Assembly: GCA_030611315.1 (NCBI GenBank) | Contig: JAUWPZ010000021.1 | Coordinates: 1 to 37,509, forward strand | Source of the DNA: Sedimentisphaerales bacterium | GTDB lineage: Bacteria; Planctomycetota; Phycisphaerae; Sedimentisphaerales; Anaerobacaceae | Length of the DNA stretch: 37,509 nucleotides | Reading direction: 5' to 3' | Shown here: positions 32,933-37,170 of the stretch, in pieces | How positions within the stretch are numbered: position 1 is the first letter of the stretch | Layout: the number at the start of each line of letters is the position of its first letter | Made by a program: the position numbers and the translations under genes | The notes under the pieces: model-generated | The model's database searches: none | What the model saw: only the letters and a program-made list of their open reading frames with translations | Told to the model about the DNA's origin: nothing

Positions 32933-33676
32933 ATGTCAAAAACCCGGGTCTCAAATCCTCGAAACGCTGGCTGCCGCAGTTGTTACTTCTCCGGCCGTAT
33001 CGCCCGGTCCCTGCATTGCCTGCTTAATCCACCCGTCCTCGCCCTCGATACCGACCGGGCTCGCTGGCCAATCGTCAAAAGCAACGATATCTGTGGCCGG
33101 TTCCGCCTCGCCCTTGCTCATCACATCGCCGACGACCCCGCCCCTAAGAACAGCCTCCCAATCCACACCGACCACCTCGGTGATTACTGCCTCATCCCGC
33201 TCACTCAGGGCCGGGCCGCAAAGGTTGACCCCGAAGACTATGCGCAGCTCGCGCAGTTCCGCTGGCACTGCAAAATCAACAGGACCGCCGCCTACGCCGT
33301 CCGCATAATCACACACAACAACAAGCCGAAAAGAATCTATATGCACCGGCAAATCGCCCGCACTCCCGACCATCTCGTCTGCGACCACATCAATCACGAT
33401 GGCCTGGAAAATAGAAAGAAAAACCTCCGGAATTGCACCCTCACCCAGAACAATGCAAACAGCCGCCCCTCGAAAAACTCCTCCTCGAAATACAAAGGCG
33501 TCTCCTGGAACAAATCCCGCCGAAAGTGGGCCGCCTTCATCAAAAAGAACGGCACCCAGTTCCACCTCGGCTACTTCCACGATGAATCCTCCGCCGCCCA
33601 CACTTACGATAATGCTGCCCGCAAATACCACCGCGAGTTTGCCGTTCTAAATTTCCCAATTTCGCCAGGCCGCTAA
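32933..33676 (+). CDS. HNH endonuclease with AP2 DNA-binding domain
   Basis: The middle carries an HNH_3-type nuclease segment (MHRQIARTPDHLVCDHINHD, GLENRKKNLRNCTLTQNNAN), and the C-terminus an AP2 domain (SKYKGVSWNKSRRKWAAFIK, YFHDESSAAHTYDNAARKYH, EFAVLNFP). HNH-AP2 proteins are homing-type or free-standing mobile endonucleases, often in phage and accessory DNA. The first ~80 residues do not match the usual start, and the true start could be internal. GAAGGACA precedes ATG 32933. The last ~15 residues recur five times downstream as relic copies, making this the living member of a local array. Confidence 0.85.
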   Translation: MSKTRVSNPRNAGCRSCYFSGRIARSLHCLLNPPVLALDTDRARWPIVKSNDICGRFRLALAHHIADDPAPKNSLPIHTDHLGDYCLIPLTQGRAAKVDPEDYAQLAQFRWHCKINRTAAYAVRIITHNNKPKRIYMHRQIARTPDHLVCDHINHDGLENRKKNLRNCTLTQNNANSRPSKNSSSKYKGVSWNKSRRKWAAFIKKNGTQFHLGYFHDESSAAHTYDNAARKYHREFAVLNFPISPGR

Positions 33677-34287
33677 AGCCGGAGTTTATCCGCCTCTGGC
33701 GGAACAGAGCCGCTAAAAAATTCCACGCAGAATTTGCAAACTTGAATTTCCCTGAGAACGCATAGCTGGAGCCTGACCGCCGAAGCCTTGGCGAAGGCGG
33801 AACAAAGCAGCTCGAAAATATCATGCAGAATTTGCTTCTCTAAACTTTCCAAAACCTCCGAAATGCAAACGTTTTACATTAAAATAGAACTTCCTTCGCG
33901 AAATACGCTTCACGCTTCACGAGATACGAGATTATCACGCCCAATTCGCAAACTTGAACTTTGAATCTGAAATCTGAAATCTGAAATCTGAAATTCCTCG
34001 CCCCCTGCATTGCAGGGGGTTCTTCTTCGTTTAGCCCCGCCACCTGTGGGCGGGGTCACCCTCAACCCGGCGGCCAACGCCGGGCATATTTAGCCCCCAC
34101 CCCTGTGGTGGGGGGCCTCTACATAATGTAATTCACGATTTATTGAGTGGGTTATGTTTAGCCGTCGCCGTCACGGCGACGAAATACGACATACGAAAAC
34201 GCCACGGCCAATTCGCCGCCTTAAACTTCCCAATCTGAAATCTGAAATTCCAGTTGCCACGGCCAATTCGCCTCCCTAAACTTCCCA
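33614..34287 (+). repeat. Array of six AP2 C-terminal tails (one intact, five relic)
   Basis: The coding sequence for AARKYHxEFAxLNFP occurs at 33614-33658 (inside the gene, AARKYHREFAVLNFP), 33709-33753 (AAKKFHAEFANLNFP, with its own stop at 33763), 33807-33851 (AARKYHAEFASLNFP), 33927-33962 (DYHAQFANLNF), 34185-34232 (YDIRKRHGQFAALNFP) and 34258-34287 (HGQFASLNFP). DNA differs mostly at synonymous positions. Copies 2 and 3 each begin just behind a hairpin and the bases GGCGGAACA; copies 4 to 6 are each followed by AATCTGAA-type units. Confidence 0.8.
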
Positions 34288-34357
34288 ATCTAAAATCTGA
34301 AATCGAAAATCGCAAATCGCAAATTCTTTCCGTCCTTCGCTCTTCGCTCTTCGTACT
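33677..34357. other. Non-genic mosaic of relic tails, hairpins and word repeats
   Basis: Between the converging HNH-AP2 and ion-channel genes. Contains the five relic tails, a TCCGCC-TCT-GGCGGA palindrome (33689-33703), a CCGCC...GGCGG palindrome (33777-33800), AATCTGAA units at 33963-33995, the hairpin cluster at 34001-34180, and CTTCG words after 34329. Confidence 0.7.
34001..34180 (+). repeat. Cluster of five GC-rich hairpins, three with TTTAG prefix
   Basis: CCCCCTGC-ATT-GCAGGGGG (34001-34019); GTTTAG plus CCCCGCC...GGCGGGG (34029-34055); CCCGGCG-GCCAA-CGCCGGG (34066-34084); ATTTAG plus CCCCCACC-CCTGT-GGTGGGGG (34088-34115); GTTTAGCC plus GTCGCCG-TCA-CGGCGAC (34156-34180). The stems differ in sequence yet keep the prefix and orientation. 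Confidence 0.75.
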
Positions 34358-35440
34358 TCATCCTTCGCTCTTCGCTGTCTTTTCCGTAAATTTGCCCGCA
34401 GGCCCACCGGCAGTAAACAAGACAGCAAACCGCGTCAACAACGCACCTAAAAGAACATAACCCAAAATCACCTGCAACATCAATAACGTCTGCCCGCCCC
34501 AACTATCAGGGTTCGCAGCGATATCGCCAAACCCTAATGTTGTCATTGTAACAACCGAGAAATATAATGCGTGCCAAAATCCTCGAATATCACCAACAAC
34601 GTTATTGACCATAACGCAACTCGGCCAAACCCAATAGACCACCGCAAATACAACCGCCAAACCAAAGAAAGTCAGTATAATTCGCCAAGTACTAAGCCCA
34701 TAATCACTAATCAACCAAAATGTCCAAATAAATAATCTTTTTAGAATACGTTGCCACCAGCAACCCTTTGTGTACCACTCCTCCCAATTCATTCGCCTTA
34801 TATTATATTCCAAAAGCTGTCTTTGACGAGGATGTATGCGTATGCTTCCCAAGCCAACACCTTCAAAATTTGTTTTTCTGTTAATGTTACAATCCCAAAT
34901 CAAGGTTTTGCCGTCAACAATAGCTCTTGAGAAATCTGCGCCTTGTATCGCCGCTCTGATAAGTCTGGCACCTTCCAGATGGGCTCCGGTAAGGTGGGCA
35001 TCTTCCAGATAGGCTTCGAGAAGGTGGGCATTTTCCAGATTGGCTCCGGGCAGGTCGGCACCTTGCAGATGGGCTCCGGAAAGGTCGGCACCTTGCAGAT
35101 TGGCTCCCTCAAGGTCGGCATTTTCCAGATGGGCTATGAGAAGGTCAGCATTTTCCAGATTGGCTCCCTCAAGGTAGGCATATTCCAGATGGGCTCTGAC
35201 AAGGTAGGCATTTTCCAGATGAGCTCTCTCAAGGTCGGCATTTTCCAGATGGGCTTTATAAAGGTCGGCGCCTCCCAACAAGACTTTCTCGTCGGGATGT
35301 TCTTCTTGCCATTTATTCCATTCGGTAATATCCTTCTTATCTGAGCAGCGTTTAAGAATTTTATACTGTTCTTCATTGTACTTGGGTTTGTCTTCCGGCT
35401 GCTCACGTTTGGGTTCAGACTTTTTCTTTTTTGCCATCAT
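34358..35440 (-). CDS. Pentapeptide-repeat ion channel (potassium-channel type pore)
   Basis: A 360-residue protein: a charged lysine/glutamate-rich start, about 24 pentapeptide repeats A(D/N/H)LxxA (from GGADLYKAHLENADL to IQGADFSRAIV) forming a right-handed quadrilateral helix, and a C-terminal two-helix ion channel with pore sequence FSVVTMTTLGFGDIA, where TLGFGD replaces the usual TVGYGD filter. The pentapeptide part is cytoplasmic and may sense or gate. ATG 35440 is chosen because AGAGG lies seven bases upstream; ATG 35503 would add 21 residues but has no ribosome site. The gene's end overlaps CTTCG repeat words. Confidence 0.88.
   Translation of the reverse strand: MMAKKKKSEPKREQPEDKPKYNEEQYKILKRCSDKKDITEWNKWQEEHPDEKVLLGGADLYKAHLENADLERAHLENAYLVRAHLEYAYLEGANLENADLLIAHLENADLEGANLQGADLSGAHLQGADLPGANLENAHLLEAYLEDAHLTGAHLEGARLIRAAIQGADFSRAIVDGKTLIWDCNINRKTNFEGVGLGSIRIHPRQRQLLEYNIRRMNWEEWYTKGCWWQRILKRLFIWTFWLISDYGLSTWRIILTFFGLAVVFAVVYWVWPSCVMVNNVVGDIRGFWHALYFSVVTMTTLGFGDIAANPDSWGGQTLLMLQVILGYVLLGALLTRFAVLFTAGGPAGKFTEKTAKSEG
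34960..35270 (-). repeat. 30-base tandem repeats inside the pentapeptide gene
   Basis: Period of 15/30 bases built on CTCCAGATGGGC- and AAGGTCGGCA-like units, corresponding to pairs of pentapeptides. Units are similar enough for recombination to change repeat number. Coding, not CRISPR. Confidence 0.75.
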
Positions 35441-35509
35441 TGTCCTACCTCTTTTCAATTCCTCATCCGCTGGCCGTCCCGATTTACTTATTGTTTTGGC
35501 CATTTTTGG

Positions 35510-35545: not shown

Positions 35546-35761
35546 TTATTTATTAAATATTCTCCAAAGTATGACAACAAGGGGCAAAATTATAAAGATA
35601 ACACAAACGGTAACATATAATAATATACCAATTATTTTTTTTAAGTTAAATCTTAAAGGATTTGCTCTTTCCTGGTTCTTTATCTGCTCCCACTTTGCCT
35701 CATCAAAATACTGTCTGAAGAACCAATTCATAAACTTTTCCAATTTCATATTTAGCTTCAT
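35546..35761 (-). CDS. 71-residue membrane protein
   Basis: Basic, amphipathic start (MKLNMKLEKFMNWFFRQYFD), then KWEQIKNQERANPLRFNLKK and one long helix (IIGILLYVTVCVIFIILPLV) with a short tail WRIFNK. AAGGGG precedes the ATG. 105 bases upstream of the ion-channel gene in the same direction, so it could be an accessory subunit; that is context only. Confidence 0.7.
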   Translation of the reverse strand: MKLNMKLEKFMNWFFRQYFDEAKWEQIKNQERANPLRFNLKKIIGILLYVTVCVIFIILPLVVILWRIFNK

Positions 35762-35812
35762 TTTTCCCCTTTTAGAAAAGTATTCACCGCACCATTTTAA
35801 CGATTGCCTGTC

Positions 35813-35839
35813 TCAATTTCTCACAGCCAGTCTTTGCTC
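35813..35839 (-). repeat. Relic tail EQRLAVRN-stop, copy C
   Basis: Minus-strand codons GAG CAA AGA CTG GCT GTG AGA then AAT TGA, just after the stop of the four-repeat protein gene. Encodes QRLAVRN-stop with synonymous differences from copies A and B. Confidence 0.6.
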
Positions 35840-35847
35840 GATACATT

Positions 35848-36447
35848 TCATACTTTTCGTTTTGTTAGACCCAATCGGAATATATGTGTTCTTGTAGCTT
35901 GTACCGGTCTTCCTATTTGTTCAGCAATTTGCTCGGCAGTCCTGGTGGGATAGAGTTTCCTCAGCAAATTCAGCTCTTTCTTTGACCACGGAGGGGCCTC
36001 CTTTCTTAACCCCAATTTCTGTGCCCTCAGTAATACCGCCAGAGTAGACCTGCCAATTTGTCCTGCTATTTCCTGATAACTTTTGTGTAGGTAGCGTTTT
36101 CTAAGCAGGGCCTCCTCCTGCTTTGACCAGGGAACATTTGCGTTTTGATTTTTAAGGCCAAGCTTACGTGCTTTTTCGCTAACTGTATTAGTAGACCGTC
36201 CAAGTTTTTCCGCTATGACCTGCAGCTTCTCAGTGGGATATAGTTTTTTGAGAATACCGAGGTCTTTCTTTGACCAGAAACGCTTTTTTTGCAGCCCTAA
36301 TTTCCGAGCTTTTTCTCTCAATGAACCTATCGTCCTTCCCGTTTGTTCTGCGATATCCCTTGCCTTTGTATTCCGATAGAGCTTTTTGAGCAGCTTAAGC
36401 TCCTCTTCAGACCATAAAACCCAAGTGTTTTTCTTCTTCTTGACCAC
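35848..36447 (-). CDS. Protein of four tandem HTH/SANT-like repeats
   Basis: 199 residues built of four ~47-residue units, each of the form (P/L/F)WSxxELxLLKKLYP, then IAEQIGRS, then ARKLGL. Examples: LWSEEELKLLKKLYR, FWSKKDLGILKKLYP, PWSKQEEALLRKRYL, PWSKKELNLLRKLYP. Each unit looks like a Myb/SANT or sigma-region-4-like three-helix DNA-binding domain. Nothing else is present, so the protein is probably a DNA-binding factor reading a repeated or long site. GTG start at 36447 has AAGGG nine bases upstream. It lies among small membrane protein genes and relic tails in the accessory region. Confidence 0.82.
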   Translation of the reverse strand: MVKKKKNTWVLWSEEELKLLKKLYRNTKARDIAEQTGRTIGSLREKARKLGLQKKRFWSKKDLGILKKLYPTEKLQVIAEKLGRSTNTVSEKARKLGLKNQNANVPWSKQEEALLRKRYLHKSYQEIAGQIGRSTLAVLLRAQKLGLRKEAPPWSKKELNLLRKLYPTRTAEQIAEQIGRPVQATRTHIFRLGLTKRKV

Positions 36448-36603
36448 TGCACGTATCCCTTCAACAGAAGTCCATAGTCTCTAACTCCCTTGATTATGCT
36501 TCTGTCCATAATTTCAGGCCAAAAGGTGCGGGGTGGGAAAAATCGTGCCCTCAGAGGAAAATGAGGGTATGCGTGCTCCGCACCTAATTGTCATTCCTAT
36601 TTC

Positions 36604-36636
36604 TCAATTCCTCACAGCCAACCGCCGATTAAACAT
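36604..36636 (-). repeat. Relic tail RRLAVRN-stop, copy B
   Basis: Minus-strand CGG TTG GCT GTG AGG AAT TGA preceded by CGG, starting within the last codons of the gene at 36629-36943 in another frame. Same peptide as copies A and C. Confidence 0.6.
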
Positions 36637-36943
36637 GTTCGTCTTTCTTGCTCCTGAAAGTAATGATTAGTCCCACAGTTATTACGGCGATTATCGCCCA
36701 TTCGATACAAAGTAACAATGTGAATATCTGAGCTTGAGGTGGGTAAAAGTTGAGGCTGAGGTTCTTGTTCCGGAACTCATCATCAAGTTCGAGGCGTGTG
36801 GGGCCATATAATAGTGAACGATGTCCATAATAAAACTTAGGGGACATAAACGAATTGTTCGTATAGCACCAAGGAGGCCTAAGGCCTATTAGCACAAAAA
36901 GAATAATAAACGACCACAGGCAAATCTTTTGTTTCCGATTCAT
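36629..36943 (-). CDS. 104-residue two-helix membrane protein
   Basis: First helix at MNRKQKICLWSFIILFVLIG, a ~50-residue soluble loop (SPKFYYGHRSLLYGPTRLEL) and a second helix (FTLLLCIEWAIIAVITVGLI) with a basic tail. GGGATGGGATT precedes the ATG. Not recognised; the loop would lie on the outer side if the first helix acts as a signal anchor. Confidence 0.65.
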   Translation of the reverse strand: MNRKQKICLWSFIILFVLIGLRPPWCYTNNSFMSPKFYYGHRSLLYGPTRLELDDEFRNKNLSLNFYPPQAQIFTLLLCIEWAIIAVITVGLIITFRSKKDEHV

Positions 36944-36992
36944 AATCCCATCCCTAAATAGCCCCGGGTTTACTCTCTCTCATTTTTTTTCT

Positions 36993-37170
36993 ATTCCTCA
37001 CAGCCAACCGCTGCACCACCTCGAGTTCAAGAGCAGCGTAAACCAACAAATACTTATGTGACCAAAGGACCTGATAAATACACAACAGCCTGTCCCTTCG
37101 GCTCTTCAAGGACCTTCTTGAACTGTTCTATCTCGTCATTTCTGCCGACAAATATATTTTCTCCGGCCAT
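36993..37170 (-). pseudogene. P-loop ATPase remnant with N-terminus and C-terminus joined out of frame
   Basis: From ATG 37170 (GGGAG eight bases upstream): MAGENIFVGRNDEIEQFKKV, then LEEPKGQAVVYLSGPLVT and a stop at 37054. The string F-V-G-R-x-x-E-I-x-x-F-x-x-x-L is the start of AAA/STAND-type ATPases, in which a Walker A loop should follow Q-A-V-V-x-V-x-G. Here the loop is absent. In another frame the DNA continues KYLLVYAALELEVVQRLAVRN, plausibly the C-terminus of the same or a sister gene. The simplest reading is a large internal deletion. The tail QRLAVRN also appears in the two relics further left. Confidence 0.55.

Follow-up and report, generated by a model that had tools for sequence, protein, structure and literature searches.

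Genes and repeated peptide ends in the window

The window, i.e., the whole stretch of 37,509 nucleotides of Sedimentisphaerales DNA that was analyzed, contains a series of minus-strand genes interspersed with short copies of one peptide end, QRLAVRN followed by a stop codon. A pentapeptide-repeat protein with an ion-channel domain is encoded at 34358–35440 (the start is probably at 35440; the listed open reading frame extends to 35503). A 71-aa gene without a Pfam match (35546–35761) starts 51 nt past the first tail copy. Next to it lies a Myb/SANT-repeat DNA-binding gene of 199 aa (35848–36447), whose best PHROG match is phrog_323, a D5-like regulator. The 104-aa gene at 36629–36943 looks membrane-like by eye, and searches of Pfam, NCBIfam, PADLOC, and PHROGs gave no accepted family match for it. 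The series continues with a 38-aa frame (37054–37170), which has no Pfam match and presumably resembles the start of a STAND-type ATPase.

Three copies of the peptide end (hereafter, tails) are present, all on the minus strand and at the positions of the original prediction. The 21-nt pattern MRGYTGGCTGTGAGRAATWGA, allowing up to three mismatches, matches three times in the window and in none of 100 shuffles, which excludes chance. Copy 1 (35813–35851) is a mini-frame MKCIEQRLAVRN-stop, a longer common peptide than first described, and its own ATG overlaps the stop codon of the Myb/SANT gene as ATGA. The common peptide of the best copies likewise extends further than predicted, to (K)(E/K)CIEQRLAVRN-stop. 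Copy 2 (36604–36632) reads RRLAVRN-stop; the 104-aa gene ends on it, the copy having its start within the stop region of that gene. Copy 3 (36990–37018) reads VQRLAVRN and carries AGA in place of the stop codon; upstream of it no more homology was found (479 of 1000 shuffles score equally well). The other two copies have the predicted TGA stop, and the codon differences were also found as described (AGA CTG … AGA in the copy at 35813 versus CGG TTG … AGG). The claim that each copy lies just past or overlaps the end of an unrelated gene holds for two of the three, but not for the copy near 37010, which is preceded only by the short fragment at 37054–37170.

A probable fourth, damaged tail (35450–35479, minus strand; 11.4 bits, E 0.0027 in 7.5 kb) is located directly before the pentapeptide-repeat channel gene. 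It is similar to the leader of a homologous channel gene on another contig of the same genome (C77), where a perfect tail copy directly precedes this relative of the window gene. A second short common sequence, approximately GACAGGCAATTGTTAGAATGGTG, is found at 35812–35784 of the window and at loci L022 and L089–L092, after some tails and before others.

On the plus strand, an AP2/HNH gene (32933–33676) has HREFAVLNFP as its own end. Within 0.7 kb, five more AP2-type ends of the form H(A/G)(E/Q)FAxLNF are encoded on the same strand (33730, 33828, 33942, 34209, and 34264; region 33635–34290). This other predicted family of relic tails is therefore also real.

The parent gene encodes an 82-residue protein

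The parent of the tails is a protein of 82 residues, MEKAEIK…KARRCKQCIEARLAVRN-stop. A protein family ending in the peptide thus exists, as had been anticipated, and the tails are its C-termini. The proposed owner, a STAND/AAA ATPase, was rejected since the family with this end is 82 aa long and has no match in Pfam, NCBIfam, PADLOC, or PHROGs. No relatives were found among phages, plasmids, viral contigs, or solved structures, and no literature on the gene or its remains was found, judged by titles.

Within the bacterial family of the window's genome, the tail pattern has 10 matches in eight of 89 genomes (reversed control, 0), and two of these loci (L013 and L016) are whole genes of 82 codons. 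Using the 82-aa protein as query, matches were obtained in 17 of the 89 genomes, and a profile of eight full-length members has matches in two families of the order, in 36 of 161 genomes. The 26 protein-level matches in the window's family, counted over the protein and profile searches together, comprise 11 full-length copies (one with an internal stop), 11 with the C-terminal part only, and four with the N-terminal part only (one of them at a contig edge). The intact gene occurs in several genomes of this family as well as in relatives in the order.

Neither the window nor the rest of its genome contains a full-length reading frame of the 82-aa gene, only relics. The family C-terminus, CIExRLAVRN plus a stop, is present in copy 1 (KCIEQRLAVRN-TGA); copies 2 and 3 retain only RLAVRN, without a stop in copy 3. 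The intact gene in genome G045 agrees with copy 1 in CIEQRLA(V/I)RN and in the sequence after the stop, GACAGRCAATCGTTAAAATGGTGCGGTGA. In the window the gene body is absent, and its place is taken by the Myb/SANT gene. Elsewhere in the same genome, tails occur on contig C77, and both gene ends surround a second Myb/SANT gene on contig C120. C77 also carries an older C-terminal relic of the 82-aa gene that contains a stop (locus L001, 266–337), before a ferritin-like gene; a shortened copy of the 82-aa gene on contig C174 of genome G069 precedes a gene similar to this ferritin-like one.

Searching the exact degenerate tail in the GTDB collection returned three matches (Brucella, Iodidimonas, and CP070728.1). 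Those in Brucella and Iodidimonas were judged to be chance, as the translation upstream shows nothing of the 82-aa family. The tail in CP070728.1 has the same context as in genome G030, which is also that of the public record Planctomycetota bacterium isolate bin43.

The tails vary as coding sequence

Thirteen tails without an intact parent, all from truncated or re-used copies, were compared codon by codon. Of their 254 codon differences, 113 are synonymous (fraction 0.445), compared to a mean of 0.215 after column shuffling; five of 300 shuffles reach the observed value. Seven tails from full-length or longer partial copies have a synonymous fraction of 0.433 versus 0.18. The outcome named beforehand as contrary to a relic origin, a non-coding element with third positions equally conserved, was not what we found. 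At the other end of the gene, 32 5′ ends followed by a short frame differ at codon positions 1, 2, and 3 by 852, 583, and 1227 changes, respectively, the third position being the most variable. That the tails are a non-coding repeat, or similar by chance, is scarcely credible. One locus (L104), in which the tail DNA is read in another frame, would suit such a repeat; the intact protein family, the synonymous excess, and the absence of matches in shuffled sequence all argue against it.

The 5′ end of the gene as a separate module

The aligned starts of the family share TTGnnn, 17 nt, TAnnnT, 7–8 nt, and ATG, followed by the MEKAEIK codons. This 5′ end also survives alone, as a sigma70-like promoter sequence 7–8 nt before an ATG, which is followed by ATGGAAAAGGCCGAAATCAAG. 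Two models were built without structure, one of the sequence of this 5′ module (R1) and one of the tail (R2), both in part from loci that they afterwards find. At an E-value of 0.05, R1 matches 60 of the 89 family genomes, before varied genes; the weakest of these matches comprise the promoter part only. The 5′ end survives even more widely than the 3′ end. Across the phylum, at an E-value of 0.001, R1 matches one of 246 sampled genomes, namely that of the window.

Among 41 module loci examined, 32 have a frame of less than 60 codons from the module start, and some frames continue from the module ATG into another gene. The −10-like hexamer lies 7 or 8 nt before the start in 27 of the 41 loci, a spacing that suggests a leaderless promoter with transcription from the start codon. 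Ten downstream genes, chosen by eye from 33 downstream frames, were scanned for domains. They include a release factor-like protein, a rubrerythrin, a Gp49-like protein, a sulfatase, a DUF1016 protein, and an NMT1-like binding protein; four of the ten have no Pfam match.

In the window's genome, the 5′ module is present on contigs C120 and C152. In the window itself, R1 did not find the module (promoter-like sequence, 7–8 nt, ATGGAAAAGGCC), and there is a weak protein-level match at 36509. It corresponds to the frame MDRSIIKGVRDYGLLLKGYVQW (36441–36509, minus strand) in front of the Myb/SANT gene. Its resemblance to the parent N-terminus is equaled by 11 of 2000 shuffles and is the second best of 1646 window starts, which is suggestive of a possible N-terminal relic of the 82-aa gene.

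Myb/SANT genes between the two ends

Relatives of the window Myb/SANT gene are found in 52 of the 89 family genomes. We inspected 20 loci that were selected by this protein alone, some of which had contributed to R1 or R2. The 5′ module lies at the start of 12 and the 3′ module at an edge of 11, together accounting for 17 of the 20 loci, and six are flanked by both, with the 5′ module before the gene and the 3′ module after it. When only loci not used for model building are counted, eight of 11 have a module. In several genomes the Myb/SANT protein starts with codons of the parent (MEKAKIKKSGWVSWSEDE in G018, MEKAEIKKNSWVAWSEDE in G069), and several such proteins end in the parent tail (KKRRLAVRD, KKRRLAVKN). 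There are also several genomes in which the Myb/SANT gene uses the ATG of the parent and ends in RLAVRN-stop.

The pentapeptide channel gene served as a control, and none of its 28 loci from other genomes has either module. The link with the modules is therefore specific to the Myb/SANT genes, and a tail preceding the channel gene is a peculiarity of the window's genome; the idea that the tail is a general leader of this channel gene was rejected for the same reason. Among the longer Myb/SANT relatives, those of loci L086, L087, and L102 have a Cys-Cys zinc-finger end. The gene of L086, the one scanned (as L061), matches endonuclease VII-type phage families at this end.

Decay and re-use of the gene ends

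Partial copies in other genomes illustrate how the middle of the gene may have been lost. On contig C193 of genome G084, the tail directly follows codons 1–28, the joint being CAAGGCCCGCC, a sequence found at both places in intact relatives. In G069, codon 44 is joined in frame to RLAVRN, and in G063 MERAKI is joined to ECIERQLAVRN. Judging from these sequences, the three joints represent deletions inside the gene. For 24 tails we examined the distance to the next frame of 60 codons or more: in 11 it starts within 25 nt of the tail end, and in the other 13, including all three window copies, it does not. The tail contains GTGAGGA and could possibly act as a ribosome site for the next gene at the 11 close tails, not at the three in the window.

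These observations modify the picture of relics left behind unrelated genes. The tails are leftover C-termini, as proposed, but they are not simply dead, in that 5′ and 3′ ends often flank Myb/SANT genes as a pair or are fused to them and that nearly half of the tails lie close to the next start. The suggestion of a general process at the locus is supported in part, by the deleted or re-used copies of the 82-aa gene in many family genomes and by the five AP2-type tails after the AP2/HNH gene.

We consider it fairly probable that the QRLAVRN-stop repeats derive from one undescribed, family-dispersed 82-aa gene and represent the 3′ ends of its eroded copies, the middle being lost by deletion or replacement while the ends persist as re-usable parts. 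Broken copies retain the C-terminus, the N-terminus, or both, the middle having presumably been lost through deletion between short repeats and through replacement by other genes. The ends may outlast the middle because they have kept a function, the 5′ one that of a leaderless promoter with a start codon and the 3′ one that of a stop codon with a ribosome-binding region for the next gene. Other genes would then adopt the expression-competent ends of the decaying gene. Promoter activity, translation from the common ATG, and selection on the ends are all presumed. In the window, the three copies would have eroded to their last 7–12 codons, with one wrapped around the Myb/SANT gene. As the window's genome yielded no intact copy, erosion there is deduced from its relatives.

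The same ends could have been left by chance if the 82-aa gene had merely headed many small operons and had itself decayed neutrally, with no bookend role. An intact gene can indeed directly precede another (24 nt, G084 contig C96), a gene that lies downstream of an intact copy in G084 has a 6-codon relic before it in G039, and the tails before Myb/SANT starts in G066–G068 are consistent with this account. On its own, however, it leaves unexplained both the six loci in which a Myb/SANT gene lies between the 5′ and 3′ ends and the number of surviving ends, and we regard it as unlikely. Those six nested loci would fit Myb/SANT genes that are homing-type mobile genes inserted in the 82-aa gene. 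Such genes would also explain the PHROG matches to an HNH endonuclease and, for the longer relative L061, to endonuclease VII families, as well as the several Myb/SANT paralogues in some genomes. Yet Pfam detects no nuclease domain in the window Myb/SANT protein and the PHROG matches, part of them to phage HNH or endonuclease VII families, are partial only; moreover, the middle of the host gene is missing rather than split, and many 5′ and 3′ relics occur without a Myb/SANT gene. Insertion of this kind thus seems improbable to us.

It is equally improbable in our estimate that the two ends form a working pair of expression bookends between which whole genes are exchanged by recombination, a cassette system derived from a protein gene and not from recombination sites. 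A reading of the tail itself as a recombination or attachment site, with the 3′ end of the 82-aa gene acquiring genes as cassettes in the way that tRNA genes acquire elements at their 3′ ends, would account for the successive same-strand window genes bounded by tails. A tyrosine recombinase lies within 10 kb in seven of 37 module loci, with 2.1 expected (P 0.007, a post hoc comparison over ten chosen genomes). Still, neither the window's contig nor C77, C120, or C152 yielded a recombinase, the tails have ragged ends and a coding signature, and the partial copies begin at many different codon positions of the gene; we regard this reading as improbable too. Searches for empty sites in the genera g39 and g7 gave no clean before/after pair and returned only module-bearing orthologues, paralogues, or unrelated repeats, so that spread of the 82-aa gene was not observed.

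Erosion of the 82-aa gene with persistence of its ends would make sense of a puzzling repeat, which would be what is left of a lineage-specific gene unnamed in the family libraries searched. It would also offer a concrete route by which genes may acquire a promoter, a start codon, or a stop via the ends of a decaying neighbor. As one bacterial family displays many stages of decay, comparing close strains makes it possible to test in which order deletion, insertion, and fusion took place.

Comparison with known systems

Like other bacterial pseudogenes and gene remnants, the copies are broken protein genes with deletions, frameshifts, and stops; what sets them apart is that their ends are retained and serve unrelated genes in frame. 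Integron gene cassettes are successive same-strand genes, each followed by a short common site, and the successive same-strand genes of the window, each with a short common site after it, resemble them. However, the site here is the terminus of a protein gene and shows synonymous variation, and the contig has no match to the Phage_integrase family. Some elements integrate at the 3′ ends of genes and restore them, as at tRNA-type attachment sites. The repeated 3′ ends of one gene beside acquired genes recall such elements, whereas the ends in our case are ragged and neither an element nor a recombinase was found on the contig.

The phrog_323 D5-like regulators and the proteins linked to HNH or endonuclease VII share Myb-like repeats with the window gene, and relatives of the latter have the Cys-Cys zinc-finger end. 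The window gene differs from them in having no detected nuclease domain and in being set between the ends of the 82-aa gene. Correia elements are dispersed repeats that carry promoters, and the 5′ module is similar to them as short repeated DNA that brings a predicted promoter-like sequence to many genes; in contrast to Correia elements, it is the 5′ end of a protein gene and includes the start codon. Many short interspersed repeats of another kind, roughly 40–80 nt long and unrelated to the tail, are present in G070, G017, and other genomes of the family.
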